A stretch of DNA of 64,000 nucleotides from Patiria miniata (GCF_015706575.1 NW_024037063.1:11346927-11410926); one strand, 5' to 3'. Shown: positions 21,889 to 56,680, counted from the first letter of the stretch. A program made the numbers and translations. The notes: generated by a model not told the origin, from the letters alone.

Positions 21889-22335
21889 TCTATGTTCTGA
21901 CACCCCTATGTTTCGACAACCCTATGTTCCGACACCCCTATATATGTTCCGACAACTTTATGTTCCGACAATCTGCACATACTCCCAGTGAGGGTAAGGG
22001 TTAGGTTTAGGGGTATAATAAGGGTCCCTAAATGAATGTTACTCTGAATATTGTATGTAAAAATGCATTTCTGTATGCCGTATGAAATAATGATTGTAAA
22101 ATATTTGTATTTTTTGGTTACAATTTACGTATCTTTTTCAAGACAGTAAGGTGGCCTTGCTGTAGTGTCAATTGGTTACACCCCTATGTTCCGACACCCC
22201 TACGTTCCGACTACTCAACCTATGTTCCGACACCCCTATATGTTCTCACACCCTTATATTCCGACTGCACATATTCTTATCCCTATCCCTATCTCTACTC
22301 CTAACCCCAACCCTACCCCTTACCCTAAACCAACA
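21889..22335 (+). repeat. TATGTTCCGACACCCC minisatellite with telomere-like inner blocks
   Basis: Units of about 16-17 bp (CCTATGTTCCGACACC and variants) occur at about 21,889-21,975 and again, same orientation, at 22,178-22,270. On the inner side of the first block lies GGGTAAGGGTTAGG (21,990-22,015). Beyond the second block lies its inverse, CCCAACCCTACCCCTTACCC (22,275-22,330). The open frames here are repeat artefacts. Confidence 0.75.
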
Positions 22336-22339
22336 TCGC

Positions 22340-23340
22340 TTTCTACTTCACCTGTTTATTTCCAGCACCGAGGAGGTGGTACACACCGCTGGGTGGCTGT
22401 TCACAGACCTCCAGTATCTCACTGCATGAGGTGGCTGGGTTTTGCTCGGTGCCATTTGCACACGGAGTTGGTGGCTCTGTCAAATATTATGGAAGCCACA
22501 AATCAATGCATTGTTTCAGACGTTGGTATAAGACATAGCAGAAGAGAACCTAACCAAACACAACATGTCAGGTTACGTCACAACGCGTATCACAATTCGT
22601 AGTAACACAACAAATTACATGTTTAAACACGACACTGTTCAAAATAATACAACGTTACACCAAAACACATCACAGCTAACCCGTTACAACTCGTTACAAA
22701 ACATCACAACACAACTAAATCAACAATTAACACAACAAAATCAAACGTTTTTTCAACACATTACAACACAAGAACATACAACAAAAAGCACACTACTGCA
22801 CCATAATAGTCGATTTGGATTGGAAAGTTCGACCGCAGTCAGCGGTCAGTCTCAGCTGGACAGCTTTAGTTAGTCAGTCTTTTAGTTGGACAGTCTCAGC
22901 CAAACAAATTAGAGAGGCTTCCTAATTTTGCCGTATGTTGACTCCACAGCAATCATAACTGCGATTTGTGGTAAATGTGATAGTGACATGACATGTCATA
23001 GGGGCCTCATATTGTTACATGTTTACTTGACATCAATCAAACTGTAATCGGTTGTGAGCAAGACTTGAGGCATTTGGCTTCAAGCTTAGATTGCAAGGTT
23101 TAGGCTTCACGGTTTAGGCTTCAGGCTTTTGCTATATGTTGTATTGCTTTTGGTATACCTAGACCAAGACAAAATCGTAAATGTTCAGTTTGAGGCAGTT
23201 TATGGCAACAGTTAGTTACTCAGTCGGTCAATGAGTCAGTCAATGAATCAGTCAGACAGTTGCTCAGTCAGTCAGCGTCTCAGTCAATTACTCAGTCTCG
23301 TCAGTGACTCAGCAACAAATCACATTTCTGAAACACTGTA
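22340..23340. other. Low-complexity stretch, no gene recognised
   Basis: An ACAAC/CACAA-biased tract covers 22,570-22,800. Degenerate GTCAGTCA/CAGTCAGT repeats lie at about 22,845-22,900 and 23,210-23,310. The long frames in 22,165-22,873 have composition typical of low-complexity DNA and I do not support them as genes. Confidence 0.5.
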
Positions 23341-23359
23341 ACTTTGAAGTTGAACTCAC

Positions 23360-23572
23360 CGGAACAATTCAGCCATTTTCGAATCTCTGTTTGGTTGCTG
23401 CTGTGCAGAAAGGTGTCATAATACTTGATATCGAACGGTCTGCAGGGGGCCCGAGTGTTGAGTGAGCCGACACGGACCTCAGTGCACTGACAGGGATCCT
23501 TTACCGGGATAACCCAACGGTACCTGTTTTGGCAGGCGGGATCCGGCTCCTGGCCTATTTCACAGTACATCG
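23360..23572 (-). CDS. Internal exon of a secreted cysteine-rich protein
   Basis: 213 nt, phase 1 at both ends. The acceptor is TTGATATAG and the donor CCG|GTGAGT. It reads MYCEIGQEPDPACQNRYRWV, then IPVKDPCQCTEVRVGSLNT, RAPCRPFDIKYYDTFLHSS and NQTEIRKWLNCS, with six cysteines and one N-glycosylation sequon. The 5' phase matches the donor of the signal-peptide exon at 37,057-37,135 (first base of the split codon G, completed by CG to Ala), so I join the two: signal peptide followed directly by this mature N-terminus. Symmetrical phase 1-1 is typical of shuffled extracellular modules. I do not recognise the module; its MYCE start echoes the VYCE start of the 18,488-18,838 exon. Confidence 0.6.
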
Positions 23573-24019
23573 CTATATCAACAAGATAATACAACATAAT
23601 ACAAAGGTTATTCACAAATCGATTACCAAGCAGAGTTAGGCCTAATATGAATGGAGATTAGAAGCTCTGGTCCGCATTTTCCTCCATAATATCGGATGTA
23701 AACGCTGACCTCATAGCGCGCATGCGTGTATATGACATATTTCATGAATGAAGTTAATTAGGGTGAGTCAAAACAAGGAAACCCGAAAGGGCGAACCAAT
23801 ACTCTCTGCATGTAGCACTATCAATATCTTTGATATGAAAGCCCAATTAAAAAGATTTCTTTTAGTACTAGAATCATTCAAGTCACTTATATAATTTTTA
23901 AGTTACGGAATTTTAAACACAACCACCGTTTTAAAGTTCTGTCCGCGGATCACAAAAAAGGTACCGTAAAGTGTTGTTTCTACGAAAGCCCGTTAGTGCC
24001 ATCGAATGTATAAATTGCT

Positions 24020-25975
24020 CTTTTGCAAGTATATGTTTGGTGAACCTTGTTTTTTGCAAGTGTATGTTTGGCGAATCTTGTTTTTTGCAAGTCTATTTTT
24101 GGGAAATCTTGTTTTTTGCAAGTATAAATTTGGCAAGTCTTGTTTTTTCAAGTACTATGTTTGGCGAATCTTGTTTTTGTAAAGTCTATTTTTAGTAACA
24201 GTCTTGTTTTTTGGGAAGTATATGTTTCCCGAGCCTTGTCTTTTGCAAGAATGTTTGGCGAGTCCAGTTTTTGTGAAGTCTATTTTTAGTAACAGTCTTG
24301 TTTTTTGATGTATATGTTTGGCGAGTCTTGTTTTGTGCAAGTATATGTTTGGCGAATCTTGTTTTTTGGATGTATATGTTTGGCGAATCTTGTTTTTTGG
24401 ATGTTTAATATTTGGCGAGTCTTGTTTTGTGCAAGTACTATGTTTGGCGAATCTTGTTTTTTTGCAAGTATAAATTTGGTGAGTCTTGTTTTTTGCAAGG
24501 ATATGTTTGGCAAATCTTGTTTTTTGAAAGTATTAATTTGGCAAGACTCTTTTTTTTGCAAGTATAATGTCTCGAGTCTTGTTTTTTGCAAGTATATCGT
24601 CACCGACACCACGAAGTAACACCCATCTACATACCAGTAAAAACTAACAGTCGGAGAAAACGGCAACTAAAGTTGAACGCTTTCTAAAACAACACTTTGC
24701 GTCAAAACGACAGAGTATTTTCAGTTGGGTTTCTAGTTGTGGACACTTGATGAATTGAATTGATTAAATCTGCTGGTTTTCACTCGTTTGTGTATTAAAT
24801 AAACAAGAAATAAGAGAAAAAAATGAGTGTTAGTCTGTGAAACCGAAAAAGCTGCGAAACTGTAAATTTTCGTTTTCACGAAGTAACACTCTTCAATGTA
24901 TTTAACACGAGGAAAGTGCAATTTCAGGTCAGCGCGCGCGCGCTCATACAACTTGTTACAAGAAGAGTGTTACTTCGTGAAAACGTTTTTGCTCACTTGT
25001 GAGCAGAGTGCGCGCCATGCATTGCAATGGAAAATGGAACTTGAGTGTTACTTCGTGAAAACGAACATTGTCACTTTTGCGCAAAAGTTGCCATGGATAC
25101 TTAGCGTAATTATTAAAGTAAAGCTTTTGAAGCTTTGAAACTTCGTGCAATGGTAGGCCTTGATGAATAATGTTTAAAAATCCAAAAAACTGAAAATCGA
25201 AAAAAATAGGCTTTAACACGGTAGAGTGTTACTTCGTGGTGTCGGTGACGATATGTTGGAGAATCTTGTTTTTTGCAAGTATATGCTTGGCGAGTCTTGT
25301 TTTTTAGCAAGTATGTTTGGCGAGTCTTGTTTTTTGGATTTATATGTTTGGCGAATCTTGTTTTTTGGATGTATATGTTTGGCGAATCTTGTTTTTTGGA
25401 TGTTTAATATTTGGCGAGTCTTGTTTTGTGCAAGTACTATGTTTGGCGAATCTTGTTTTTTTGCAAGTATAAATTTGGTGAGTCTTGTTTTTTGCAAGTA
25501 TATGTTTGGCAAATCTTGTTTTTTGAAAGTATTAATTTGGCAAGACTCTTTTTTTTGCAAGTATAATGTTTCCCGAGTCTTGTTTTTTGCAAGTATATGT
25601 TTGGAGAATCTTGTTTTTTGCAAGTATATGTTTGGCGAGTCTTGTTTTTTAGCAAGTATGTATGGCGAGTCTTGTTTTCTTGAAGTCTATTTTTAGTAAC
25701 AGTCTTTGTTTTTTGGATGTATGTGTTTCCCGAGTCTTGTTTTTTGCAAGTATGTTTGCCGAGTCCAGTTTTTGTGAAGTCCATTTTTAGTAACGGTCTT
25801 TTTTTTTGCAAGTATATGTTTGGCGAGTCTTGTTTTGTGCAAGTAGGCCTATATGTTCGGCAAGTCTTGTTTTTTGCAAGTATACATTTAGCGAGTCTTG
25901 TTTTTTGGATGTATATGTTTCCCGAGTCTCGTTTTTTGCAATTATATGTTTGGCGAATCTTGTTGTTTTTAAATC
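24020..25975 (+). repeat. Left minisatellite arm, about 30-bp unit, interrupted
   Basis: Unit consensus is roughly TTTGGCGAATCTTG plus TTTTTTGCAAGTATATG, with variants (GGATGTATATG, AAATTTGGTGAG, AGTCTATTTTTAGTAAC). A block of about 230 bp within it occurs twice (24,345-24,575 and 25,345-25,570), so the array has duplicated internally. A 653-bp transposon splits it at 24,598-25,250. All long frames here, on both strands, are artefacts of the repeat. Confidence 0.85.
24598..25250. mobile_element. 653-bp DNA transposon nested in the minisatellite
   Basis: Near-perfect terminal inverted repeats of about 26 bp start CGTCACCGACACCACGAAGT and are followed by AACAC. The flanking minisatellite supplies ATAT on both sides (24,594-24,597 and 25,251-25,254), consistent with a 4-bp target duplication. 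Internally the subterminal motif CACGAAGTAACACTC recurs in both orientations (24,879, 24,969, 25,041), a pattern typical of transposase binding sites in non-autonomous elements. No coding frame. Confidence 0.8.
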
Positions 25976-26074
25976 TGTTAGGCGATGTGCATGAGGGCGC
26001 TGTTGTTTGTGATGAAAGTAGCCATGCCGATAGCAGAAGCAAACGGCATCTTATCCGGAAACTGCGAGCTCTAG

Positions 26075-26147
26075 GTCTTTTCCGGCGAAAAAATCACACC
26101 CGATATTGTAGACGTCGCCACCTTACTCTCCTTCAATACTGTTGAAG
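26075..26147 (+). other. Possible captured exon in the foldback core
   Basis: A 73-nt open stretch lies between an acceptor-like CTCTAG and a strong donor GAAG|GTGAGT. It reads VFSGEKITPDIVDVATLLSF then NTVE in one frame. It could be a fragment of a host gene carried by the element; equally it may be chance. I do not recognise the protein. Confidence 0.25.
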
Positions 26148-26221
26148 GTGAGTTGCAAACGTCTGGGCAACTGCATGGCTATAGATGGATGCACTTGCGA
26201 TGCGTTCAGAGTGGTATCAGT

Positions 26222-26400
26222 CAGTGGCGTAGCCATGAATTTTTCAGGGGGGGGGGGAGGGGATGCAACATTTCATGGGGGGGGGCGTCATGTAGATCAA
26301 TGATACTTTTTTTAGAAACTCAAAATCTCAAGGGGGGTGCGACTGGGGGGGGGAGGGGCGACAAGGTTTCATGGGGGGTCTGGTAATAAAAGAGGGGGAG
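26222..26400 (+). mobile_element. G-run MITE relic
   Basis: Starts CAGTGGCGTAGCCATGAA and continues in G-runs, as do many hAT-derived MITEs. I cannot find a matching right end, so only the left end is claimed. A GA-rich microsatellite follows at 26,392-26,425. Confidence 0.45.
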
Positions 26401-27117
26401 AGAGAAAGAGAGAGAGAGACAAAAAAAACTTTTGTCATTTAAATTTGTCTGATCACTGCTGGCATTGTTAATTTTCTTAAACATACTCCAAACATTTTTC
26501 CCAGTTGAGAGAGTTACAAGTATTCTCCACAATTGTATCCCTTCATAAAACATGTCTTATCCATTAAGCTAAGTATACTGTTACTATTCATAAAGAGACA
26601 ATGCACCGCTGACTTTTATCTTCAAAATGAGTAACAAGTTTAATACAATATGTAATTAAACATAGGACAAGAACAAGCCAAACAAACAAGTCTACTTTTA
26701 TTAATCATCATGTAGGGGGTAGTGTTGGACATATGATGAACTTGGATGGGTCATAAAAGTTCAGGGGTGTAGCAACATCTAATACATCAGTTCACGCAAG
26801 ATATTTCTCTTCACAATGTTTTTGTACTCTGTCTTTAGCACAATTCAAAATCAATGCATCTCTATCATCTCTAACAATTGAAAATCACATAATTTAAAAA
26901 CTTTAGATCGTAAATACTCGGACCGGATATTTGGTAACTAAATATTGAATGATTAAGTAGTGAGTAAGTTGTAATTGTAATGAAATAGGATGTGAGACAG
27001 TGAAAAAGAACAACTAATTTCTATGGAGGGCAGATGGTTATACTCTCCCAAAACCCTGACAGTTGAGGATAGTATCTTCCATCATGCGGTGGAACTTATC
27101 AGGATCATCAACTCCTC

Positions 27118-28250
27118 AGGAAACATATATACATGTACTTGCAAAAAACAAGATTTGCCAAACATATACTTGCACAAAACAAGATTCGCCAAATATGAAC
27201 TTAAAAAAACCACCCAAGACTCGCCAAACATACTTGCAAAAAACAAGATTTGCCAAACATATACTTGCACAAAACAAGATTTGTCAAATATGTACTTAAA
27301 AAAAAACAAGACTCGCCAAACATATACTTGCAAAAACATATACTTGCAAAAAACAAGACTGTTACTAAAATGGATTTCACAAAAACTGGACTCGCCAAAC
27401 ATATTTGCAAAAAACAAGACTCAAAAAACATAAACTTCCAAAAAAACAAGACTGTTACTAAAAATAGACTTCACAAAGAACAAGACTTGCCAAACGTATA
27501 CTTGCACAAAACAAGACTCGCCAAATATATACTTCCAAAACAAAACTCGCAAAACACATATATTTGTAAAAAACAAGACTGTTACTAAAATAGACTTCAC
27601 AAAAACTGGACTCGCCAAACATACTTGCAAAAAAACAAGACTCGGGAAACATATACTTCCAAAAAACAAGACTGTTACTAAAAATAGACTTCAAAACAAG
27701 ACTCGCCAAACATACTTGCAAAAAAACAAGGCTTGCCAAACAAATACTTACACAAAACAAGATTCGCCAAATATATACTTAAAAAAACAAGACTCTCCAA
27801 ACATATTATACTTGCAAAAAACAAGGCTTGGGAAACATATACTTGCAAAAAAAGACTTGCCAAATTTATGCTTGCAAAAAACAAGACTTGCCAAATGTAT
27901 ACTTGCAAAAAACGAGACTCGCCAAACATATACTTGCAAAATACAAGACTTGCCAAATTTATACTTGCAAAAACAAGATTCGCCAAACATATAATTGCAA
28001 AAAACAAGACTTGCCAAATTTATACTTGCAAAAAACTAGATTTGCCAAACATATACTTGCAAAAAAAACAAGATTCGCCAAACATATACATCCAAAAAGC
28101 AAGACTAAATGTATGCACAAAAAACAAGGCTCGCCAAATATATACATCCAAAAATCAACACTTGCTAAACATATACATCCACAAAACAAGATTCACCAAA
28201 CATATACATCCAAAAAACAACATTCACCAAACATATACTTGCAAAAGAGC
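27118..28250 (-). repeat. Right minisatellite arm, inverted
   Basis: The same unit as the left arm in reverse complement (CAAACATATACTTGCAAAAA, ACAAGACTCGC), about 35-40 units with point changes. Blocks such as GTTACTAAAATAGACTTCAC mirror the TTTTTAGTAACAG variants of the left arm. Confidence 0.85.
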
Positions 28251-28571
28251 AATTTATACATTCGATGGCACTAACGGGCTTTCGTATGTTTCAATATTAA
28301 AACGAATTAATTTACATAGGGATGTGTGTGATTTTTTTTTCCTTTTGCAGACAGAACACACACCTTGTTTTGTGATCCGTGGACAAAACTTTAAAACGGT
28401 GGTTGTGTTTAAAAATCAGTAACTTGAAAAGTACATGAGTGATTTAAATGATTCTTGTACTAAAAGAAAGCTTAATAATAATTGGGCTTTCTTTTACAAG
28501 TTCTACATGCAGAATTCAATTCAGAAAATGGTCCTGCCCTTTGAGTTTTTCATTTTTTTTTTACTCACCCT

Positions 28572-28994: not shown

Positions 28995-29807
28995 GCCCGA
29001 TAGTCCGAAGGTTCGATAGTCCGAAGGTTCTTTAGTGTGAAGGGTCATTAGTCCGAAGGTTCGTTAGTCCGAAGGTTCGTTAGTCCGAAGGTTCAATAGT
29101 CCGAAGGTTCGATAATCCGAAGGTTCGGTAGTCCGAAGGGCCCATTAGTCCGAAAATAGAATAAGTTTAATTAATCCGAAGGTTCGATAGTCCGAATAGA
29201 CGATAGGGTTCAATAGTCCGAATCAACAATAAGGTTCGATAGTCCGAATAGATGATAAGGTTCGATAGTCCGAATGTACGGTAGGGTTCGATCGTCCGAA
29301 TTGACAATAAGGTTCGATAGTCCGAATTGATGATAAGGTTCTATAGTCCGAATGGGCAATACGGTTCGTCAGTATGACACTTCGGACTATCAGACCTTAC
29401 TGTTGATTCGGACTATTGGACCTTATTGTCGATTCGGCCTATCGGACCTTATTGTCGATTCGGACTATCGGACCTTATAGTCTTTCCGGACTATCAAACC
29501 TTATTGTCAATTCGGAATAATAAACCTTCGGACTAATGAACCTTATTTTCGTTTCGGACTTTTGAACCTTCGGACCGATTAACCTTATTCTAAATTCGGA
29601 CTATCGAACCTTCGGATAAATGAACCTTCGGACTAATGAACCTTCGGATTAATGAACCTTCGGAATATTGCATCAAATGTTCGAATGAACGAACCTTATT
29701 TCATTTTCGGACTAACGAACCCCCTCTTATGGAAATTTTGTGCATACGGAATATCGAACCTTCGGACTATAGAACCTTCGGACTATTGGACCTTCGGACT
29801 ATCGGGC
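28995..29807. repeat. Palindromic AGTCCGAAGGTTCGAT minisatellite
   Basis: Units of 16-17 bp in one orientation (AGTCCGAAGGTTCGAT) fill 28,995-29,375 and switch to the reverse complement from about 29,385 to 29,807. Outer ends GCCCGATAGTCCGAAGG are mirrored exactly. Inner units carry a longer variant with GATAAGGTTCGATAGTCC (about 33 bp). The whole 0.8 kb is a near-palindrome with no unrelated core. Confidence 0.9.
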
Positions 29808-30469: not shown

Positions 30470-31065
30470 TTCATTAGGGTGCTTGGAACTTACCAACCCA
30501 TGGAACCAGGTTACCAAGACAGCCGACGGAACTACGATAAGCAACACTGATACACATTGCACTTCGCGATCGTCACATTGTCATTCCTACCACGCTTCAG
30601 CAACGCGCAATCGACATTGCACACGAAGGCCATCAAGGCATGGTCAAAAACCAAACAATTTCTCCAACAAAAAATTTGGTTCCGCGGACTGGACACACGA
30701 GTTGAAAACACCGTAGCTGATTGCCTACCATGCCAAGCCACAACCGTGGAAAAAGCCACTAGAGAACCGCTTCACATGATCTACCTGATGCACCGTGGAC
30801 ACATCTCAGTATCGACTTCAAACAACTGCCAACAGGTGACTACCTGCTTGTCGTGATCGACGACTACAGTCGTTATCCTGATATTGAAATCACAAGCTCC
30901 ACCTATGCAAAATTTTTCATCCCCAAGCTTGACAAAATCTTCGCAACCTTGCGCTGCCCACAGTTTGTTCGCAAACACAACTGTCCACATTTCAGAGTGC
31001 AGGATTCACATCATTTGCTATATCCATTGGTTTTGATCACATCCGCATCACACCAATCTGGCTGC
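30470..31065 (+). mobile_element. Ty3/gypsy fossil, integrase part
   Basis: Remains of the integrase region of a Ty3/gypsy LTR element. Scattered pieces resemble the zinc-binding part (KAWSKTKQFLQQKIWF, VADCLPCQATTVEKATREPL) and the start of the catalytic core (DDYSRYPDIEITSSTYAKFF). No gag, protease, reverse transcriptase or LTRs are seen near it. It is an old, clearly broken fragment with several breaks. Confidence 0.75.
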
Positions 31066-31719
31066 AAGCAAAGGCGGATCCGGGGGAGGGGGGCCAACGG
31101 AAATTTGATAATGATTCTTTCAAAATAAAGTATTACGTAACCCTTACAAATCGGCCTTCGCAGTCATAAAGCTGTAATTGCATAAGTACAGCGCTTATGG
31201 ACGTAATTAACCTTCCCAACCCTTCACTTTCTCGAAACCTCTAACCGCGTTTTTTTCAACTGCCTCTTAGCTGCAACCATTCGTTTCATTAAAGTATACG
31301 GTAAATTGGAGAGTGATACTCGTTAATTTTTTGGAGCCCAAGTGTGACTGTAAATTTATATGTATTTTTAAAACCTGATTGACAAAGAATTTACGGGGAT
31401 TTTGTTTCTACACAGTACAATATTTATGTTAGAAAGGGTAAGAGAAACATTAAACTGCAAATAAAAACAATAACAGATGAAAGCGTATTTTTTCAACTTT
31501 GGTGTAAGATAACTTTACAAAAAAGATATGAAAACTGCAAATATTTGGCGACGCTGCTGCCAAAAATATTCCGTGAAATTAGAGAGTTAACCATCGCACC
31601 ACTATGTGAAGCTATATGAGAAAATTGTCACTAATGGATTGGGTATACACAATAGAGCACAGCATGCACCCCCGTTTGGACTTAACAAAGCCGAAACGTC
31701 CGCTTTTGTTAAGTTTCAT
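31066..31719. other. No gene recognised
   Basis: A G-rich GGCGGATCCGGGGGAGG segment at about 31,073-31,096 may be the end of a hAT-type MITE. The rest shows nothing I can assign. Confidence 0.45.
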
Positions 31720-31723
31720 TTAA

Positions 31724-37445: not shown

Positions 37446-38352
37446 TAGTCTTTGTCGAGATGGAACTCTCCGCAAGGTAATTATTAATTCTCGCGTGAGT
37501 CATCATTGAACATTTTAATTCATAATGCCTGGAGAAAATTTCGATTATTCAAAATTAAACGCTCCGTAAATGTAAACAAACCGGTCAATTATTGCACAAG
37601 ATGTTGAAACTTAAGTTAGATGGCGAAAGAAATGAAGAGAATTGTCTCCATTTTAAAGCTAATTATAAATAATCCCCCTTTAACCACTAAGCTGCAAAAT
37701 AGGACCCAATCCTATTGTACCAGGGTACGAGATGGGGTGGGATGTGGCACTAGATAGTTACCAATATTTTATCACTATTATTTATTATTATTACTTTTAT
37801 TTTTGTTGCGCCACATAAGGCAGCAAGTAACTAAATAGATGATAATCCTTCAATGTACCCATACATGTTTGTGTCTCGTGTCCTGAGTACAGCAATACAA
37901 ACTAACATTATCAGCTCCAACATGTATTAACACTAGCTGGACAACACATGTGATCTATAGTCTGGTTCCCAGACCCCCAAAAATCTGACTATTTCTGATA
38001 AATTTTAGGTCAGGTAGCCACCACGGCACGTGACCAAGGCGGGAGGAATGCCTCCCGTTTCCGAAAATGCCCGAGGTTTGTAGAATGCAATTTGTCGACA
38101 CTATGGATAGCAACTGGGTATTCCGGGTATACACTTTTTTTGGTACCTACCATGCTTTAGAAAAAAAAATAGTTGATACAATAAATTCGCTGTTTGCATT
38201 AAAAAAAACCTTGAAATTTAATTGCATTCGGATACACGGAAATAATGGTCGTGAACAAACGTCACTCGAATAATCAGAGTTGTTTATCAAACCAGCACAT
38301 GTCATCATTGGTCGTCTCGATTCTCACTGCGGGCATTTCGCTACTCTGGTCT
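37446..38352. other. Intergenic spacer, possible promoter side of the minus-strand gene
   Basis: No coding sequence is supported. The stretch next to 37,445 should hold the promoter of the minus-strand gene, but I see no clear core element. Confidence 0.4.
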
Positions 38353-39067
38353 CTATGGTGTTCTATAGACGCCAAATCTGCGTCGCGTCGTGCTTTCACG
38401 TCGTGCCGTCGCGTCGTACCGTCGCGTCGTGACGTCGTCTGTCGCGTCGTGCCGTCGCCCGTCGCGTCGTGGCGTCGTGTCGTGCCGTCGCCCGTCGCGT
38501 CGTGCCGTCGCCTCTTAAATTACCGTTTCTAAGCACGTACGCTGTATGAGGAAGTGACGCACCTTCACACGTCGCGTCGTGCCGTCGTGCGTCGCGTCGT
38601 GCCGTCGCCCTTCGCGTCGTGCCGTCGCCTGTTACCTCGGCGCTTCTAAGTAGACTGCTTGAAGAGGCAACGCACACATTGCCCGTCGCGTCGTGCCGTC
38701 GCCCGTCGCGTCGTGCCGTCGCGTCGTGCCGTCTCCCGTCGCGTCGTGCCGTCGCCCGCCGCGTGACTGTATCTTTCTTGGCAATAGGTGGCGCCTTCAT
38801 TCTTCATGTACCTGTACTCTATGTCGCGATATGTCGTACAGTTTGTACACGGTTTGTGGGGAGGCCTATTATTAGTGGTTGCGGAGGTCCTACTCAATCA
38901 ATTTCAAAATACATAGACTATTTTCTGCTTCCGATTGCCAAACAACAAAGCACATATACACGCGATTCCGGGCATGAGCTTGAAAAACTAAACAACGTGA
39001 CATTGAAGCAGGATAGCCTATTGATCACATTGGATATTGTGTCCATTTTTTTTTCTTTCTTTCTTTT

Positions 39068-39326
39068 TGGTAATGAAACCAAGGGTCCCTCAAAAGTGCC
39101 TTAAGCACTGTAGCCCGGAAGCCTGAAGAAACCTGTAGAGAGAAGACAATGAAAAGAAATTACAGTTTTAAAGGTGGGAGGAAAACCCCAGAAGAATATT
39201 CTGAGGAAAACCCACGGAATCAGGTAGTGACTGAAAACACAATCCACATATTGGCCCGGGCGGGATTTCGAACCCGGGTCACAGCAGTGGAAGGCGAGGA
39301 AAGTACCGCTACGCCAACCTGACTTC
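39068..39326 (-). mobile_element. SINE family 1, copy 2, full length
   Basis: On the minus strand a tRNA-like head (AGGTTGGCGTAGCGGTACTT as A-box region, CCCGGGTTCGAAATCCCG as B box) is followed by the family body (GTGTTTTCAGTCACTACCTG, CGTGGGTTTTCC, TTTTCCTCCCACC). A TTTCTTTC run adjoins its 3' side on the plus strand at 39,050-39,066. Confidence 0.85.
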
Positions 39327-39364
39327 CCTAATAGTCAGGTCCTAATACATTCCATTCAAATTGA

Positions 39365-40130
39365 ATCAGTTTGCGATGCACTTGAAGCTATTCCTTCCTC
39401 CATGCTTGAAGTTACCGATAGCAGTATGTACGCAATACCCAAACCTACAAGAGAACACGCTCGCTGTCTCCTGGAACTTATCATGCATCGAAACATATTT
39501 GAATTCAATGGAAAGTTCTTCAGACAGAAAATTGGCGTGGCTATGGGAAGCGAATGCAGTCCAGAAATATGCGATATAACCCTGCAATCCTTCCATTGTG
39601 AGTTACATGAGATACAGGGACAACGTCTTAATAATATTTAACGGTAACGAAGACCAAGCCGGTGACCTCGTCCAAACTCTAAACCAAATTCATCCCACGC
39701 TCAAGTTCACGTCAGAGATTTCAAACAGTCAAGTCACCATCCTCGACCTCGTCATCTACAAAGGCGAACGGTTCCAAAAAGAAGGGAAACTGGATACTCG
39801 AGTAGCAACCAAAAAAACTGATACCTTTCAGTATCTTGCTCGAGATTCAGCCCACCGTGAGTCAGTGTTTGGCGGTTTGATTAAGGGAGAATTAATGAGA
39901 TATGACCGTATATGCACACACTCAAAATAATTTGAGGAGAAGGCTGAATTCTTCAAAGACAAACTTCAAAAACGCGGATACAACCAAGAAGACTTAGCCC
40001 TTCTTCCCTAAAAAGGCGAAACTCGCGTGAACTCTAAAAAGCGTGCAAAAACCGAAAAGAATATCCCGCTGGTCTTTGTTTCACCCTACCACCCACAAAT
40101 TAAACACCCAGCTCTTAAGCAGGCCCTTCT
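39365..40130 (+). mobile_element. Penelope-like reverse transcriptase remains
   Basis: In-frame pieces read HARCLLELIMHRNIFEFNGK, FFRQKIGVAMGSECSPEICD (the QxxGxAMG...SP motif of Penelope-like reverse transcriptases), MRYRDNVLIIFNG (catalytic box, RDN here where the family usually has a DD pair), HPTLKFTSEISNSQVTILDL, KKTDTFQYLARDSAHRESVF, GGLIKGELMRYDRIC and, further on, VFVSPYHPQIKHPALKQALL. The order fits the family and the spacing is close to normal. The N-terminal part and the GIY-YIG endonuclease are not visible. The frame changes at least twice, so the copy is dead. Confidence 0.75.
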
Positions 40131-41192
40131 GAAACACTGAAATATGCCCTGGTCCGATCAAGGATTAACCCATCTCCACCATCCAACCAAGAAAAAAAAC
40201 TTGGATGAGGAGAACGTACAAGTCCTTTTGGAACTTCTTGAAGAACAGAACAAACATAATGGTCATTTAGGCATGGATTTCGAAATAAAAATAAAAAATA
40301 AGAAATCCACTTAATCTGATCATTACAAGAAATGCTAACGCGTATAATATTATTAACCATCATTAGCAATAAAGTAAATACGTATAAAAGAATTAAACAA
40401 AGGGTGACTGATGAAGTGCGTAAAAAGGGCACAGAAAATATGCACTGTTTCCCCGACACACAAAAAAAAGAAAAAACAGGTGGGACGGCATATTATCACC
40501 GGTATAAATCAAATCATTAAGTGAACTAAAAACAAAAACCACATGTACACAAACCAGTCCCTGCGTCGCTTAAACACCGGGTGAGTTTTTTTTAAACTCC
40601 CGCTCTCCGGTTATCACCAATTTAATGGGCCCGCTGGCGAGGTATGTGTTGACAAGTTGTAACCCACCCATCACCGCAACCCAGCAGTGGAACTGATGTT
40701 ACTCCCTATATGCGTATTGAATTTCCAAAAAAGAAAAAAACCTTAACAAATACGCTCTAGGCAGTTTAGTCATATACTTACACAGGTATCCATACCAGTG
40801 CTTCTAAGTCTTAAATAAACGGAAATCTTCTCTAGCTGGTTGCAAATACAATGTTTTCAAAAAGATTCATCAGCTCGCAGAGCCCCTCGTACTCCAATTT
40901 TATCATACATCCCATAAAAAGAAAAGAATGAGGAACGGCCCTGAATGAAAAATGCTGATATCAATCCCATCTTCCTCCCTTGTTTTAAGCCCTTATTCAC
41001 GGCGGCAACTTTCTTGGAATTACTTTGGTACCAACAAGTTATTAGTATCAACAGATTGTTCCCTGAATTTTGCTCGCACAAAACTGGTTCTTCCTTGCTA
41101 TTTTCCTAGCCAGAAAACCACTTCTTTTTAAGAAAACACAAGTCTGATAAAAACTTTAATGCATGGTGGCGGCCAAACTCCATTCCATTTAA

Positions 41193-41628
41193 CCCTAAAG
41201 GGGCCGGGGGGTGGGGGGGGGGGGGGCGGAATCCCCCCCTCAACATTTTCCGCGATAGCCTCTAAAATTTTTCGCGACCCGAGCTGTTATGACTTTTTAG
41301 CCTCGAGCTTTGCACATCTTTTGATACCAAAAACATAAAAATCAGACAACGGGTTGCCGCGTAGCGAAAAATTTTCCGGCGGTATACGCCGTGAAAACTG
41401 AATTTTCGCATATACGTCGTGTACACAGAGCAGAATTGCCATTTGTCCATATGAATAATTAATTAGCCATAATTCCAAAACACTTTGACCTATAGTAATG
41501 AAATTTCTTGGGTAGGTTTAGGAAGAGTTGCTCTATGCATGCGCTGAGTTTCAACATTTTTCGTCAGTCGATGGAATCCGCCCCCCCCCCGGCTGAGAGA
41601 TGGTCAAAATAACCCGGCCCCTTTAGGG
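41193..41628. mobile_element. TTAA-flanked piggyBac-like MITE, 436 bp
   Basis: Ends CCCTAAAGGGGCCGGG are mirrored on the right (CCCGGCCCCTTTAGGG), both bordered by TTAA (41,189-41,192 and 41,629-41,632). G-runs follow the left end and C-runs precede the right end. No transposase. Confidence 0.85.
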
Positions 41629-42178
41629 TTAAAATGTAGTGGCGACATGTATGATTACGCCCCTTCCTATTAAACACAAGTACATGAAGAATGAAGGCGC
41701 CACCTATTGCCAAGAAAGATACAGTCACGCGACGGGCGACGGCACGACGCGACGGGCGACGGCACGACGCGACGGCACGATGCGACGGCACGATGCGACG
41801 GGCGACGGCACGACGCAACGGGCGACGGCACGACGCGACGGGCAATGTGTGCGTCGCCTCTTCAAGCAGTCTACTTAGAAGCACCGAGGTAACAGGCGAC
41901 GGCACGACGCGATTGGCGACTGCACGACGCGACGGACGACGGCACGACGCGACGGACGACGGCACGACGCGACGTGTGAAGGTGCGTCGCTTCCTCATGC
42001 AGTGAACGTGCTTAGAAACGGTAATTTAAGAGGCGACGGCACGACGCGACGGGCGACGGCACGACGCGACGCCACGACGCGACGGGCGACGGTACGACGC
42101 GACGGACGACGGTACGACGCGACGGCACGACGTGAAAGCACGACGCGACGCAGATTTGGCGTCTATAGAACACCATAG

Positions 42179-43020
42179 GTCTCGGGCCATGTGGCGGGCT
42201 TTCGGAACAGTGGACACAAGTTGTGCATTTTTGGTAATTTTTGGTCCCGTGCGACTTGTGGACTGGGCCCGTGATGGACTTTTGATTTGCCCTCCTTATC
42301 TGACTTGTGATTGGCCTGTGATTAACATGGGCTCGATAGGTGGGGGCCGGGGGGGGGGCACTTTTTAAAATTGGGGATATCATGTATCGTTTCCCTCCAC
42401 TTTTTTCGTCCCCAATAAAATTTGCAGCCTACGTTTGATTCTATAGCCTAGAATACGTTATTCAACGACTCCAAACTCGAATTTGATGTTTAAATAATGA
42501 TCTTTGTTAGTAAAATGGGTATAGATGTCAGAAATTGTCTCAGATCGCACCACAGATCGTTTAGAATCCAACATTTTTCAGGGCCCTGAAGCTGGCCCCG
42601 AACCCAGCATTCATGGCTTCGCGCTCGCATTAGTTCTGATCAAATGTATGGTCCCCCCCCCCCCAATTTTGAGAAGCGATTGACGCCCTTGGGCTTGATT
42701 ATAGGTTGGTAGATTACCAAACATTTTAATTGTATCATGTTTTTTTTTTATCTCGCTTATTCAATACACAGCTCATGATAATACGGCCTGGTAGATTCCC
42801 CAAACTCTCGTGCTATTTATAAATTCTCGTTTATGTCTTTGAATAATGTATGATGTTTTTTTGTGTCCTTGTGTAGGTTTAGTGCCAGTGGATTCTCCGT
42901 CGGCTGGCAATTTTTATGTATTTTATGCTAATGTTATTGCTATGCTAAGTATTTTAATTCTGAACTTTCATGTAAATTAAGTATAATTGAGCATATGGCT
43001 GCGAGAGTCTTTTATTAATT
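42179..43020. other. No gene recognised
   Basis: Poly-G (42,348) and poly-C (42,653) runs suggest old MITE ends, but I cannot pair them. No coding sequence supported. Confidence 0.4.
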
Positions 43021-43322: not shown

Positions 43323-44138
43323 TTAATCTTGAGAATCAATCCAAACGGGGCTGTATTTTGAGTAGAAGATAACGAAGGATGAGACCAGTGCTGTTTTTGA
43401 CAGGTGAGTGGTGAGTTGCCGTATTTCGGTTTTTGTCATCAGATTGAATAGGGAGCGGATTTGTGTTTTGTTGTTTTCGTCTATGAAGCCTCTACTTCCT
43501 TTTTCCAAGGCGATGAGTTTGGAGTTGAAGCCTATCTCACACAAATCTCGTGTTAGGTTGGCATATTTTTGCATTTTGTAGTCATGGCTTTTAGTTATGT
43601 TAGTTTCGAATGGTACCGTAAATTCAACTATGGTGATGTCTTTGTTATGTTCGTCTGTTATGACAATGTCTGGCTCAAGTGTGGTTGGTAGTATGGATGG
43701 TGGGATGGTATTGCAGCCAGGAGCGTGTTTACCATCGAGATCGGCAAAGAGTTTGCGGTAAGAGCAGCTGTTGTACATTTTGTCTAGGGATTTACAGATT
43801 TCCAGTAAAACATTGTTGTGGCGATAGGTGTAACGGCCTTGATTGAGCATTACTGGGCAGTAATTGAGGATATGTAACAATGTTTCTTTGGATGTACACT
43901 TGGCGTCAACTAACTTACCCCAGAGGCAGAGATTAGTATTGACTGGTAGAGTATCTATGATTGCATTGAGTCCAAAGCGAAGAATTTTCCGAGGTAAATT
44001 ATACATTATTGATTTCCAAGTGATGTTGGATTTTTCCGTTTCCATAAGTTCTAGGAGACGGCCTTGTTTAGCAAGGGATTTGATTTTTGGATCCCATGCA
44101 TTAGCAATGTCCTTTGCTAATAAACTTAAATAAACCAT
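43323..44138 (-). mobile_element. LINE ORF2 C-terminus with restriction-like endonuclease (R2/NeSL-like group)
   Basis: An uninterrupted 271-codon frame. It begins inside the post-polymerase region (WKSIMYNLPRKILRFGLNAI), then has the zinc-knuckle-like CLWGKLVDAKCTSKETLLHI plus LNYCP with conserved C-x-x-x-C...H...C spacing, the RYTYRHNNVLLEI segment (R-H-N), and the endonuclease core PDIVITDEHNKDITIVEFTV, where the acidic residues of the PD-(D/E)xK-like site lie. These are hallmarks of early-branching LINEs with a restriction-like endonuclease. The polymerase itself is absent: a 5'-truncated copy, but with no break in what remains, so it is fairly young or constrained. The 3' UTR probably extends towards 43,020. 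Confidence 0.8.
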
Positions 44139-44189
44139 TAATAATAACTAGAAATGTGTTTGTGGACAAACACAAGCTGTTTCGGATAT

Positions 44190-46800: not shown

Positions 46801-46898
46801 AAGTAAGTTCCAATTTGAAGTTCAGATCATTCCCCCGCTAATCAACAAAAACATCATCATCCTCGTCACCGTCGGAGAAAATTAAATCAACTTCAACA

Positions 46899-49807: not shown

Positions 49808-50139
49808 AATAATGTACAACCCACAACCCAAGCAACTATTCAGCAACTTGTTGAACCCTCTTTTCTGATTATGTTTGAGTTTTTGTGACTGGGTAAATGG
49901 GGATTGGATTTGAAGGGTTGGGTGATACTGAGAGGTTAAATATCTTGAACACTTTTGTAACAAATACTTTAAAATACGCTGACGTGCATTATCATAGAGT
50001 TGCAAAACAGGAGCATCCTATTATGAACACCATTATAGGGCCCTACCGACTCCCATGAAAATTATCGCACTCCATTTCTGCCGTTTATCATTTTTGAACT
50101 AGTAGTGGCAATATATAACTTCGGATTTTGTATTTTATG

Positions 50140-50550
50140 TACATGTATAATGTGTTTTCCGTTGTGTTGTGTTTTTCAAAGGGAGATAACGTGATATCAA
50201 ATTTAATTGTATTTTTGTATTCCCCGATCAAAACGATTGAAAAACAACATAATTAAGTGCACCCTATTCGCTCTTTTCACACTTCCGCCATGGGCATGCA
50301 CAGCCTCGATCTGGCAACTTTACACAATTACTATAGCCGGTTCAGTGTTTTCCGTGTCGGGGCTCAGATCACTAAACCGGCTATTTTTATTGTGTAAAGT
50401 TGCCAGATCGAGGCTCTGCATGCCCAATGGCGGAGCGCGAAAAGAGCCAATAGCCCCTGAACCATTATTTTGAACTCTCCTGATACATAGAGTTTACGAA
50501 ATCTTGGCTTCGTCTCACGTTCGGCTGCAGTCGAGTCAAGCTTCATCCCT
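50140..50550 (+). repeat. Dispersed repeat, copy 2, interrupted by a MITE
   Basis: The same sequence as 45,140-45,400, with the MITE at 50,267-50,450 inside it. The two copies flank the methyltransferase gene pair in direct orientation, about 5 kb apart. Confidence 0.8.
50267..50450. mobile_element. 184-bp palindromic MITE with TA target duplication
   Basis: Arms TTCGCTCTTTTC / TTGGCTCTTTTC, followed by GCATGC, AGCCTCGATCTGGCAACTTT and ACACAAT, are mirrored over about 75 bp. TA dinucleotides border it (50,265-50,266 and 50,451-50,452), and the sister repeat at 45,285-45,286 shows a single TA: a documented empty site. This fits a Tc1/mariner-type non-autonomous element. Confidence 0.9.
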
Positions 50551-50599
50551 TAGTACTGCCGAGTACTTAGATTGCCGAGTACCATTCAAGTCCGAGTAC

Positions 50600-50740
50600 T
50601 TTGCCAACCGAGTACAAGTACCAAACTGGTCTCCGAGCACAATTACTTGTACTTCCGAGTACGAGTACGAGTACGAGGAGTACGAGTACGAGTACGAGGA
50701 GTACGAGTACTTGTATTTCTAAGTACGAGTCCGAGTACTT
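50600..50740 (+). repeat. GAGTAC microsatellite
   Basis: Repeats of GAGTAC and GAGTACGAG cover 50,653-50,712, with scattered CCGAGTAC copies on both sides. Confidence 0.85.
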
Positions 50741-51236
50741 GTTAATCGAACGACCATTTTGAGGAACACGTCGGCGTTTCACGTATGTTCCCGACCATTA
50801 TGACCGTTTGGTCGATTACGTCCGACAACAGATTTTGACGAGCAATGGCCAATTATGTCCGACCCATTGTGTCCGACGGCCGATTATGTCCGACCCATTG
50901 TGTCCGACGGCCGATTATGTCCGACTCATTATGTCCGACGGCGATTATGTCTGACCCATTGTGTCCGACGACAGATTATGTCCGACCCATTGTGTCCGAC
51001 TGCCAATTATGTCCGACCCATTGTGTCCGACGGCCGATTATGTCCGACTCATTGTGTCCGACCCTTTGTCCAACGGCCGATTATACCCGACCCATTATGT
51101 CCGACAGCCGATTATGTCCTACCCATTGTGTCCGACGACAGAATACGTCCAACCTATTGTATTTAGTTGGTCGATTACGCCGGATTCGTTCGGTTGTGTA
51201 CTGACATTATTAAATTATCTTTGGATTGTAACTGCA

Positions 51237-51395
51237 GATATTTGGCTATAGCGCCATCGCAGATTTGTAATTTGAAAAACTATAGGTAGAATAGGAACTT
51301 CTAATTTTTTTAAATGGATGTCATTGCTTGTTATTATACCTATATTTTTTTTCGAAGGACAAATCTGCAATGGCCCTATAGCCAAATATCTTTCT
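51237..51395. repeat. Hairpin repeat with AGATATTTGGCTATAG arms
   Basis: AGATATTTGGCTATAGCGCC...GCAGATTTGT is mirrored at 51,359-51,393 (ACAAATCTGC, GGCCCTATAGCCAAATATCT). Sequence just beyond (GCATGCCAATTTC...TATCATCAAATGAACAAT type) is shared with the hairpin at 57,028-57,172. Confidence 0.7.
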
Positions 51396-52074
51396 CAAGA
51401 CATGCCATGCCAATTTCCCTGCTTATATCATCAAATGAACAATTGCATCACTGTTCCCATTTTAATATTGAAGTGTATTCACGTTTTTACTTGAAGTTTC
51501 GTTTTAATACTTCAAACTCTTGTTATTATTATTATTACTATGTAGTTCTTGTTTTGTAGTTAAAACTTATTATGTAGTTAAAATTTATTGAAGTCTTTCA
51601 ATACTTATTGTAGTTGGCGAGATTCTTTGTTTACTTCATCGTCATCAACAGCATCAACCCTTGTTATCATTTTTTCTTGTAACCGTCTATACAAAAAAAT
51701 CTGGGCACTGTAAGACAAATCTGGTTTAATCAGTACTTTTTATTAATGAAAATAATACCATTTAGTGAAAGGAGATGGGTCATACATAAAACCACAGTTT
51801 TGATTTGCATTACATTTGATTTAACAGTAAGAAGTATCTAAAGAAATAAGTTCGGTCATCGTTGTAGTTTTAATGGTCAAATTCTTTGGTTTTTCTTTGA
51901 TTTTCCTCTGCCAGCGTTAACGGTACATTTGTATCGGCTTTTCTGTAAAACCGGTATACCTTTTGGTTAATCGTTTGATTTATATTTTGAGTAAATATCA
52001 AACCGGTATGATAATGTCGATGTTGATGATAATAATGTTGACAGTGGATGATTTGTATATATACTCTTGATGGT

Positions 52075-52417
52075 GGCATTGATGGCTTGTGCGTTAAGCG
52101 CTCGCCTCTCACCAAGGTGACCACGATTCGAATCCTGGCCGCGGATCGCATGTGAGTAGAGTTGTGCGTTGGTTCTCTCCTGTGCCACGAGGGATTTTCT
52201 CCGGGCCCTCCGGTTTTCCTCCCTCCGGAAAAATCAAACACTTTCGATCTCAGGCTGTGCTCTGTGGTCATATATGGGTCGATGTGGCCGGCAGCCATAG
52301 GCGCCTTTACGTGCCGGCGGCCAGACCACGTTGTAGCTGCGTCCTTCGCAATTCAGCATACCAGCTGCGAGTAAGGATGATTAGCCTCCCAAATTATTAT
52401 TATTATTATTATCTTAT
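52075..52417 (+). mobile_element. SINE family 2 with TTA tail
   Basis: The tRNA-like head has GTGCGTTAAGCGCTCGCCTC and CCACGATTCGAATCCTGGCC (B box). The body includes GGATTTTCTCCGGGCCCTCC and GGTTTTCCTCCC, a motif common in SINE bodies of marine invertebrates. The tail is a TTA microsatellite (52,395-52,412). Looks full length. Confidence 0.8.
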
Positions 52418-52419
52418 AC

Positions 52420-53590
52420 CGATTGAATTAAAATTCTGTGGACTGCGTTGAATTATTACTGTTATCAATATTCAAAATACAGTTACCACTGTTATCAATA
52501 TTCAGAATACCCTAAGTCGTCAGTGGCTTTAATAGTTTTAGTGGGACTGTCCACGTTAATTTTGGGTTAAGGTTGCCCCGAAGTAGCTACCAGAAGGGCA
52601 AAAATAGCCCAAAGGTCAACGTGTACCTACACATTTTCGCCACTATAGTTATTGATTCACCTCTGTATATTCCAAAACGAAACCACACTCTTGATATAAG
52701 GTAATATCAATTAAAAAAATGTAAACGCACAACCTTACAATACGTGACTTTTTTTGTATTATACCCTTCTTGTCTTCCACGATTATCTCTAATTTTAGGT
52801 CTCTTACTTGGTGCCCCTCCGTTTCAACGAAAAATCGCCAGCTCTTTACCACTATTATGCACAATTGAAACGATATTACATTTATCGATACTTGTCCAAA
52901 TTCTCCTTACCCCATTTCCAAACTACAAAAGAAAAATGCCTTAAATTACTGTAAAAAAAAAACCTATTTAAGGGAACGAAATTAAAGAAATAATGAATGA
53001 AAAGAAAATCAATGACAGTTAATGTAGTATCCACTAGACTACATCAGTGACTCCTTCTACTGAGTCGTTTTATTCATTATATTATTGCATGTACATGTAT
53101 TGTGCCATACGCTGCAATTATCCATGTAGGACCGACTTTGTGGTATAGAAAAAAGCTCGCCTCTCGTTAATGCAGTCCTCGGCACGTCTGTGGATAGGGC
53201 GCCCTCATTCGAGCGGTGCTTCACTGGATGTTTTTTTCCCACTTTTATTTTACCAACCGCCCTTTATAACATTAACAGGGTCCTGATTCCGATAAGTGTT
53301 GCAATTGCACTCAGTGAGGAAATTGCACTCTATGAAGAGATTCCTTCATAGAGTGCAAAACATAATTAGAACATTAAAAAGGCACTTGTGAGAGTAGCTA
53401 GAGCCTAAAATAGAGGATGAAATAAATCAGAAAATCAGATTCCTGGTATCCAATTCTGTTCAAATCCAATCTTACATTCATGAGTTAATGCTTCTTAATA
53501 CGGCCGCATTGTCACACTACGGGATACAGATAAGAATTGCCTTCCACATTATCAGCAATGTAGACCTACATGCAAGTTAAACAAAATCCT
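52420..53590. other. No gene; core of the 50.8-54.0 kb element
   Basis: AT-rich, with a short hairpin at about 53,315-53,362 (TTGCACTCTATGAAG...CTTCATAGAGTGCAA). No coding sequence supported. Confidence 0.5.
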
Positions 53591-54279
53591 CGATCGGCCG
53601 TCGGACACAATGGGTCCGACATAATCGGCCGTCAGACACAATGGGTCGGATATAATCGGACGTCGGACACAATGGGTCGGACACAATCGCCGTCGGACAT
53701 AATGGGTCGGACATAATCGGCCGTCGGACACAATTGGTCGGACATAATCGGACGTCGGACACAAAGTGTCGGACATAATCGGATGTCGGACATAATGGGT
53801 CGGACATAATCGGCCGTCGGACACAATGGGTCGGACATAATCGGACGTCGGACATATCGGGTCGGACATAATCGGCTGTCGGATATAATGGGTCGGACAC
53901 AATCGGCCGTCGCTCGTCAAAATCTGTTGTCGGACGTAATCGACCAAACGGACATAATGGTCTTGAACATACGTACATGAACAGCCACAGGCTTTTCATG
54001 TAGCGCGCAGGTACAGCCATGACCTCGTGACTTTTATTAGTATGCGTAATGCACGATACTGAAATCCGTCCATTCGCGTACTTCGCTATGCGCCAATAGC
54101 GAATACGTGGTACGGAAAATAGGCGCTAGCGGATGCCGGGAGGTGATTTCTGATATGCCGCTCAGTGATCCACATATTTAATATTTGTCAATATTATATC
54201 CCTGTGGGGGTTTGGTTTTCCCCAAATCCACATTTTTAATATTTAAATGTTGCACAATTGCTGACGTTCGCGCCACTTA

Positions 54280-55105
54280 AAAAAAGTTACTCGTAAAAAA
54301 GGGCGATTGTAAAAAAAAGGCGCTCATGAAAAAAAAACGCCTTTTTTTATACATGAGTGCACGTTTTTCACGAGTGCCCTTTTTTTCACAAGTATCCTTT
54401 TTTCACGGGTGGCCTTTTTTCACAAGTACCCTTTTTTTCATAAGTGTTTTTTTATCACAAGTGCCTTATTTTTATGAGCGCCTTTTTAGCTGCGGGGTAG
54501 CAGCTCAACAAATCATCATGTCTCTCCGTTAGTCCGTTAGTAAGTCCGCTGGTTAGTTAGTTAGTTGGTTAGTAACAAACGTTGACTCTGTCTATTACTC
54601 CTACATACTTTGACCGATTTCAACCAAACTCTGTCAAAAATATCAGTAGCCCAGCCCCAAAATATGTCACATGACCAAACTAGGGTTAAAGGTCATTAAG
54701 GGGTCACTGGGGTCAAAAACCTGATTTTTAAGCTATGACAGGAGCTTCTACATGTCACTTGGTGGTCGGTCGCTCTGTCCATCTATCTGTCACCGAAAAT
54801 TGACCAAAAGTATGGTGTTCCGTATGTGCCATCGGCGTCTTATTTTGAAGCTCTGGCAGGGATCTTTTTGATCGATTTCATGCAAGACTTCTTGCAACAC
54901 GGCCAGAGCTTATTGAAAACACTACTCCTTCTTGAAATAACGTGGCACAATGACGTGACTTCTGCATGAACACGAGTTCGTTTGCCCGCAGCTTCCGAGA
55001 TATTTCCGATCGAGCTTGTTTTCATGAGTGCCCTATTCTTTAAGAGTGCCTTTTTCACTAGTGCCCTTGTTTACAAAAAAAAAAAAAAATAGGCACTCGT
55101 TAAAA
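54280..55105. repeat. AAGTGCCCTTTTTTTC array with orientation switches
   Basis: Units of about 18 bp (CACAAGTGCCCTTTTTTT) occur inverted at 54,283-54,330, direct at 54,345-54,485, direct again at 55,020-55,070 and inverted at 55,075-55,105. The middle (54,486-55,020) is a unique-looking 530-bp block beginning with a small hairpin (AGCTGCGGGGTAGCAGCT) and holding GTTAGTCC/GTTAGTTAGTT repeats. Confidence 0.65.
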
Positions 55106-55199
55106 ATATTGGCAGGGGGGGGGGGATACCCCTTTACCCCTCCTCTGCCTTCGCCACCGAAGGGGGGTCAAGTTCCTGGGCACTGTATTTTTCTGAACA

Positions 55200-56680
55200 A
55201 TAATAATGATTAAAAATATAATTATAATAATTAATAATAATACTTTATTCGGCAAATTTATATACACACAATTACAATAAATACATTTATTGGATATTAA
55301 AACAAAAGGATACAAACAATAAGAAACCAACTAAACTGTACACACGAAAGACAGAACGTGGACAGTGCAGGGCTGCCAAGGAGAAAAACAAAAGTGAAAC
55401 AAAACACTGCCGCCAATAGGGCGTGTCTCTCCAACCCTGCACAATGACAGACACATAACACAGACCAAGCACACAACAATCAAAAACACCAACATTGCAC
55501 AAGAAAGGAAAGGTCCAAGGGAGTATAATGGGATTCAAAATATGGGCAGGGCAGAGGAGACTAAGAAAAGGAAGTGGAAAGGAGAACCCAGGAAACCCAG
55601 GAAGGGGAGGGTTAAACAGGGCCAATGGGAAGAGGAGGGCTACGACAGGAAATGGGAAGAGAAGCGAGAAAACCAACTGTAGAGGAGAGGGCTGGGAAAG
55701 GGGTATGGTGGAGAAATTTATCCAGCAGAGCAACAAAAAATGAGCAACGAAGAATAGCATTAAAATTGTGCTAAAAACAACAGCAGAGTGTGAAAAGGTT
55801 GTTTCAAGTTATGTCTAAGTAAAAATAATCGAGGATGAGATTACAGATTACAGATTAAGTTATCGGGATAAGTACTCCATTTCCTAACAAACTGACAGGG
55901 AAAAGAATATTTAAATATGGAGCATACAGGTGGTGAAAGGTCAACCGGGAGTGCGCATGTCTACAATTCACATTGAAAAAAGACGTACAAAAATCACCCT
56001 AATTGCCAGATGTCAATTGCTTGCAAACAAATGTCATGAATGAGAACTCTCGCCTGGCGCTAATGGTGCCTAAATGGGGGACGTCTATAAAGTCCAACGT
56101 CCCATTGGTCCGACGTTCCATTGGTCCGACGTTCCTTTGGTCCGACGTCCCATTGGTCCGACGTCCCATTGGTCCGACGTCCCATTGATCCGACGTCCCA
56201 TTGGTCCGACGTCCCATTGGTTCGACGACCCATTGGTCCGACGGCCCATTTGTCCGACGGCCCATTAGTCTATACGTCCCATTGGTCTGACATCCCATAG
56301 GTTCGAGGGTTAGGGTAAGGGTTAGGGTTGGGGTTAGGATTCAGGGTTAGGGTCAGTCAACCTGAGCCAATGGGTCGTCGGACCAATGGGACGTCGGACC
56401 AATGGGACGTCGGACCAATGGGACGTCGGACCAATGCGACGTCGGACCAATGGGACGTCGGACCAATGGGACGTCGGACACTGAGCCGCTCAGGGTAAGG
56501 TTGCTCTTGTCTACGTTGATGTAAGATGTGACGAGTGGCATACCTTTGGAACTTTTCAAGTTGATCAATGTGTTTAACTCTGTACAGAGACCAGACAGGA
56601 GAACAATAGTCGAGAACAGGCAAAACAATTGCTTTGTGACATATTTTACATGCGTTGTAGTCCTTAGCAGAAACTAGTGT
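55200..56680 (-). mobile_element. LINE reverse transcriptase C-terminus, split by a palindromic array
   Basis: Minus-strand pieces read LPVLDYCSPVWSLYRVKHID and KFQRYATRHILHQRRQEQPY then PERLS (56,640-56,480), then after a 390-bp interruption HLGTISARREFSFMTFVCKQ L (56,080-55,999), and further FPVSLLGNGVLIP. This is the standard C-terminal order of CR1/Jockey-type ORF2. The 3' end is near 55,200-55,250, where the minus strand reads CCGAATAAAGTATTATTATT, a plausible tail. 5'-truncated and dead. Confidence 0.75.
56090..56478. repeat. Palindromic GGTCCGACGTCCCATT minisatellite with TTAGGG core
   Basis: Units of 16-17 bp run plus at 56,095-56,300 and reverse complement at 56,372-56,478, ends mirrored (GTCCAACGTCCCATTGG / GTCCGACGTCCCATTGG). 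The core (56,303-56,356) is a degenerate telomere-like string of GGGTTAGGGTAAGGGTTAGG type. It interrupts a LINE reading frame, so it behaves as an insertion. Confidence 0.85.

Follow-up and report, generated by a model that had tools for sequence, protein, structure and literature searches.

Within a 64,000-nt stretch of the Patiria miniata genome (GCF_015706575.1 NW_024037063.1:11346927-11410926; hereafter the window, in which all positions are counted), four short-unit tandem arrays share the motif TCCGA, and in three of them the repeats turn to the complementary strand half way. We regard arrays 2, 3 and 4 as foldback-like, non-autonomous DNA transposons, or the remnants of such, in which a short motif was duplicated in tandem and so enlarged the terminal inverted repeats (TIRs); array 1 would be a relative that has decayed or been rearranged. 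One unit would have given rise to arrays 3 and 4, and probably to array 1, and array 2 would represent a separate family. To this reading as a whole we assign a probability of about 0.68. Elements of this kind are already known, tandem-repeat TIRs having arisen convergently in known transposon superfamilies, and the present arrays are probably new families of that kind.

Structure of the four arrays and kinship of their units

Tandem Repeats Finder and direct reading of the window place all four arrays where an initial annotation of the sequence had put them and, as it had also claimed, TCCGA occurs in each: 98 of the 154 occurrences of TCCGA/TCGGA in the window lie inside the 2.4 kb of array. 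In arrays 2, 3 and 4 the motif reads forward and then in reverse, which bears out the reported change of strand, and the palindromic layout described for the group holds for these three only. Array 1 (21,890-22,265; about ten copies of its unit over two direct blocks) has seven forward and no reverse occurrences, shows no hairpin by single-strand folding (z 0.22) and, when each of the 15 short-unit arrays was scored for reverse-complement copies nearby, stayed at 16, below the null maximum of 20. The period, given as about 16-17 bp or twice that, is not uniform: it is 16 bp in arrays 1 and 4, array 2 also has a 26-bp period and array 3 is built of a 31-bp dimer.

The left arm of array 2 (repeats confirmed over 28,998-29,804 for both arms) mixes a 16-bp unit, AGTCCGAAGGTTCGAT, with a 26-bp variant carrying 10 extra bases; its TIR end is GCCCGATAG and its single strand folds to a nearly full hairpin (z -24.6). 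In array 3 the dimer alternates 14 and 17 bp (TGTCCGACCCATTG and TGTCCGACGGCCGATTA), the inverted tandem arms (50849-51038 and 53593-53782) are 92% alike and, outside the array, the element that holds it (E3) ends in 60+ bp of non-repetitive outer TIR, beginning ACGTATGTTC and 90-91% identical between the two ends, as expected of a transposon end. No recognisable transposase open reading frame (ORF) was found among the ORFs scanned in its middle of about 2.4 kb. Just left of another element, E5, a 27-bp stretch at 38,236-38,262 is 85-89% alike to the E3 end, and suggests that the E3 family has other copies. A palindromic 6-bp duplication at E3 (CACGTA/TACGTA) was considered and rejected, because this third end-like sequence keeps ACGT as part of the end. 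The middle of E3 also contains, at 52080-52400, a sequence that to the eye resembles a short interspersed nuclear element, with a tRNA-like head. The inverted tandem arms of array 4 (56108-56223 and 56364-56479) are 94% alike.

The initial annotation had looked to a common descent of the units. Circular alignment of the units against shuffles relates the two array 3 units, GTCCGACCCATTGT and GTCCGACGGCCGATTAT, to each other (p 0.0002) and to the array 4 unit GTCCGACGTCCCATTG (p 0.001 and 0.004, respectively), and self-blastn likewise matches array 3 to array 4 (best E 6e-10); with the core removed, similarity survives among these three units only (p 0.008-0.016). Array 1 aligns with array 4 at p 0.015 and matches it in self-blastn solely through a telomere-like stretch. 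Array 2 gives p 0.028 against the second array 3 unit before correction for many pairs, and p 0.20 against array 4; once the core is set aside it resembles none of the other units (p 0.12-0.95), and self-blastn matches it to no other array. The units of arrays 3 and 4 are thus kin, that of array 1 may also belong with them and the kinship of array 2 is unproven. Nor is TCCGA clearly better kept than its neighbours overall: among circular 5-base windows its conservation ranks high in array 2 (4/16 and 2/26) and array 3 (1/31 and 6/31), and is middling in array 1 (6/16) and array 4 (7/16).

Exact searches for the unit strings in viral contigs gave no match for any unit, and none was found as a literal string in papers. 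A loose GTCCGAC pattern of period 16 occurred in two contigs, one of them an 8-bp repeat; the other, an unrelated, tandem-repeat-rich IMG/VR contig (L002:10768-11091), holds a direct 16-bp array of 20 copies of ATATGATCCGTCGGAC, which shows that TCGGAC can recur every 16 bp in other DNA with no inverted arm. The array 1 unit may bear some resemblance to the TNPA site of En/Spm (CCGACACTCTTA); the termini do not fit.

Palindromic arrays without TCCGA

The window contains six palindromic arrays, of which three (arrays 2, 3 and 4) have TCCGA and three (in E1, E5 and a small palindrome, E6) lack it. Long TIRs with direct tandem repeats are present in arrays 2, 3 and 4 and in E1 and E5, and absent from array 1. 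E1 and E5 place palindromic arrays inside real TIR transposons of the same genome, which favours a transposon origin for the others.

The palindromic array of E1 (24,021-28,246) has a 31-bp unit, TTTTGCAAGTATATGTTTGGCGAATCTTGTT, and its long ORFs are mostly translations of that array. Two short inverted-repeat elements, at 3662-4151 and 8469-8936, have the E1 outer TIR with no tandem array, so that in E1 the array has been added to an otherwise ordinary TIR. In the E1 family, TA stands at one fixed offset outside CAGGGTGAGT at each of the five readable ends (chance about 1e-5, ten offsets being allowed for), which points to a transposon type with a TA target, such as Mariner/Tc1. The arrays of E5 (38,380-42,150) comprise the unit CGTCGCGTCGTGCCGTCGCC and a 13-bp half of it, and the identical GGTCTC copies that flank the element have a chance of 0.006 over all 13 shifts. 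An ORF in its interior (39231-39638) has no Pfam match; we take the ORF at 39231-39641 to resemble a fragment of a Penelope-like reverse transcriptase, a hand-joined piece giving only E 0.066 against RVT_1. With its TA target and its 6-bp target, respectively, E1 and E5 thus show the palindromic-array architecture in two different transposon types of the window. E6 has a reverse score of 57 against a null maximum of 29.

Unit shuffles give P 0.46 for some 5-mer common to three of six palindromic arrays, P 0.037 for four of seven when array 1 is added and P 0.57 for four of the 15 short-unit arrays. These counts are post hoc and the marginal value therefore carries little weight. The arrays themselves exceed chance, and the shared 5-mer barely does.

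Origin of the arrays

In the mechanism that we propose, a motif of about 14-17 bp would have multiplied in tandem and thereby lengthened the TIRs, a GTCCGAC..CCCATTG-like ancestral unit having given rise to arrays 3, 4 and probably 1, the last now without inverted arms, while array 2 would share TCCGA by chance or convergence. By analogy with Galileo, the tandem units may act as multiplied secondary binding sites for a transposase, presumably supplied in trans. Through slippage, unequal exchange and conversion between arms, the number and sequence of the units could shift rapidly and the two arms still be kept alike.

Several observations tell against this proposal. No transposase was found among the window ORFs scanned, and array 2, E3 and array 4 show no convincing target duplication of up to 12 bp within the shifts tested: the outer flanks of array 2 match in CAG only (chance 0.22), E3 has no clear duplication and array 4 has neither a duplication nor an outer TIR. 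Array 1 lacks inverted arms, and the mobility of arrays 2-4 is something we infer from one 64-kb window. In favour of the proposal, the ORF pieces on either side of array 4 resemble the C-terminal part of the reverse transcriptase of a non-LTR retrotransposon (a long interspersed nuclear element, LINE) and suggest that array 4 interrupts such an ORF, whose reading resumes on the far side; searches of Pfam, PDB and genome contigs returned nothing in support of that identity.

Degenerate TTAGGG runs, scanned across the 64 kb, form three islands, all touching array 1 or array 4, and control hexamers (shuffled, excluding rotations of TTAGGG) form none. For two loci treated as independent, chance would place the islands at these arrays with a probability of about 2e-4, a figure obtained post hoc. 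Either a TTAGGG-like block belongs to the elements or telomere-like DNA was used to mend breaks at these sites. The latter belongs to an explanation in which the arrays are not transposons at all but simple-sequence hairpins, formed locally through slippage during replication and through fold-back (template-switch) repair of double-strand breaks, arrays 1 and 4 having gained telomere-like DNA at the break. The confinement of the islands to these two arrays, the missing target duplications of arrays 2-4, the shortness of array 4, which has no outer TIR, and the occurrence in its flank of GACGTCCC, an 8-mer of the unit and possibly its seed, all agree with it. The distinct outer TIR of E3 and the 2.4 kb between its arms do not, and E3 is therefore not a local hairpin; a like architecture is, moreover, found in elements bearing transposon hallmarks, and we hold growth in place to be unlikely.

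The initial annotation had drawn the four arrays together as one undescribed superfamily, constant only in its TCCGA core, its 16-17 bp unit and its palindromic layout. Such an origin would suit the presence of TCCGA in all four arrays, in one strand sense across the three palindromic ones, the kinship of units 3 and 4 and possibly 1, the place of TCCGA among the best-kept windows of arrays 2 and 3, and the telomere-like islands that link arrays 1 and 4. It is not upheld beyond arrays 3 and 4 and perhaps 1, because the window has as many palindromic arrays lacking TCCGA as having it (three of each), which is, within the window, the outcome that the initial annotation had itself named as refuting. 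Chance alone would account for the degree of sharing among the palindromic arrays, array 2 shows no likeness to the others beyond the core, array 1 lacks a palindromic layout and E3 and array 2 differ at their TIR ends (ACGTATGTTC and GCCCGATAG). We consider a superfamily of this kind quite improbable. Another reading, in which arrays 1, 3 and 4 (perhaps 2) are divergent families that a single transposase recognising (G/T)TCCGA(C) would move, the unit evolving fast round a fixed core and some families having a standing TTAGGG block between or beside the arms, strikes us as distinctly unlikely, if somewhat less so. Assignment to Mutator-type (MULE/Phantom) foldback elements has a precedent in published foldbacks with short tandem TIRs, such as Tm1, which encode a Phantom-like transposase (PMC3169594); array 2, E3 and array 4 have no 8-10 bp duplication within the shifts tested and the ORFs scanned include no transposase, and we give this assignment very little credence.

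Table 1. Features of the arrays and related elements in the window
Feature	Position	Strand	Description
Array 1 block 1	21890..21971	+	16-bp GTTCCGACACCCCTAT, about 5 copies
TTAGGG-like island	21991..22012	+	just after array 1 block 1
Array 1 block 2	22178..22265	+	same strand as block 1; direct, not inverted
TTAGGG-like island	22281..22328	- (CCCTAA on +)	just after array 1 block 2
E1 (no TCCGA)	23760..28571		4.8 kb; outer TIR CAGGGTGAGTCAAAA, inner palindromic 31-bp arrays
Array 2	28995..29807		813-bp near-continuous palindrome; right arm is the reverse complement of the left
E5 left flank GGTCTC	38348..38353		identical 6-bp copy at 42178-42183
E5 (no TCCGA)	38354..42177		ends TATGG..CCATA; palindromic 13/20/33-bp tandem arrays
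E3 (array 3)	50781..53974		3,194 bp; tandem TIRs inside an outer TIR (ACGTATGTTC..), with about 2.4 kb of unique sequence in the middle
E3 left tandem arm	50791..51160	+	
E3 right tandem arm	53593..53960	-	
E6 (no TCCGA)	54279..54487		17-bp unit GAGTGCCCTTTTTTCAC, small palindrome
ORF pieces both sides of array 4	56002..56668	-	..LPVLDYCSPVWSLYRVKHIDQLEKFQRYATRHI..PYPERLS, then array, then FIDVPHLGTISARREFSFM..
Array 4 left arm	56092..56306	+	16-bp unit GGTCCGACGTCCCATT
TTAGGG-like centre of array 4	56306..56353	+	
Array 4 right arm	56367..56479	-	

Other repeats are found in the window. A fragment of a retroviral-type integrase core at 30763-31125 (Pfam rve, 4.6e-4) is the remnant of a long terminal repeat retrotransposon, and a minus-strand ORF at 43323-44147 resembles the C-terminus of an R2/NeSL-type retrotransposon (Pfam zf-RVT, weak at 0.035). 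There is a 145-bp tandem repeat of six copies at 5289-6160, a set of large nested direct repeats of about 1.2-1.3 kb (87-95% identity, including a 227-bp perfect duplication) at 11236-17023 and an inverted dispersed repeat pair of about 1 kb, 81% identical, at 1223-2190 and 59773-60744.

Should the transposon reading that we prefer be true, a single 64-kb stretch would offer a compact natural comparison: palindromic tandem TIRs in two or more transposon types, among them a TA-target type and a 6-bp-target type, one of which has array-free short relatives. Whether tandem TIRs grow convergently, and how such growth is tied to transposase binding and the birth of satellites, would then be directly testable. 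Were a single transposase responsible instead, a fixed core of 5-6 bp in fast-changing units would let the co-evolution of transposase and site be followed.

Comparison with known systems

The TU elements of the sea urchin have an outer TIR of 15-bp tandem repeats and an 8-bp target duplication. In unit length and layout they are very close to arrays 3 and 4, at which, however, no 8-bp duplication was found. The sea urchin is also cited as holding foldbacks in work on the Tetris/DAIBAM elements of Drosophila virilis (PMC4079207), which resemble E1 in having a long tandem-repeat foldback form and a short repeat-free form with the outer TIR in common, and differ from it in their 220-bp unit and target duplications of 8-10 bp.

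In Tm1 of root-knot nematodes the TIRs consist largely of 13-15 bp tandem repeats in variable number (PMC3169594) and, as in the present arrays, short repeats make up the TIRs and copy number varies between arms and elements. Neither the 9-bp target duplications nor the Phantom-like transposase of Tm1, the unit of which is CGATTCAGTATCCGC, was found here. IS3EU elements have TA..TA termini and usually 6-bp duplications (PMC10045372), and IS3EU/GingerRoot is matched by E5 only, in its TA..TA ends and 6-bp target duplication. Tandem-array TIRs are not among the features given in that paper and no IS3-like DDE transposase is seen in E5, which is therefore at most a non-autonomous member of the group.

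Galileo, of the P superfamily in Drosophila, has long TIRs with internal tandem repeats and a strong variation in arm length (PMC3688188, PMC3573991), and is the source of the binding-site model, although its repeats are far longer (about 210 bp in the F subfamily) and its transposase is of P type. Footprinting and gel shift have shown that the THAP sites of Galileo lie within the TIR tandem repeats (PMC3688188). Tandem-repeat TIRs are known from unrelated transposon groups (PMC3573991, PMC4079207), and multiple binding sites are a convergent trait of several superfamilies (PMC3573991).

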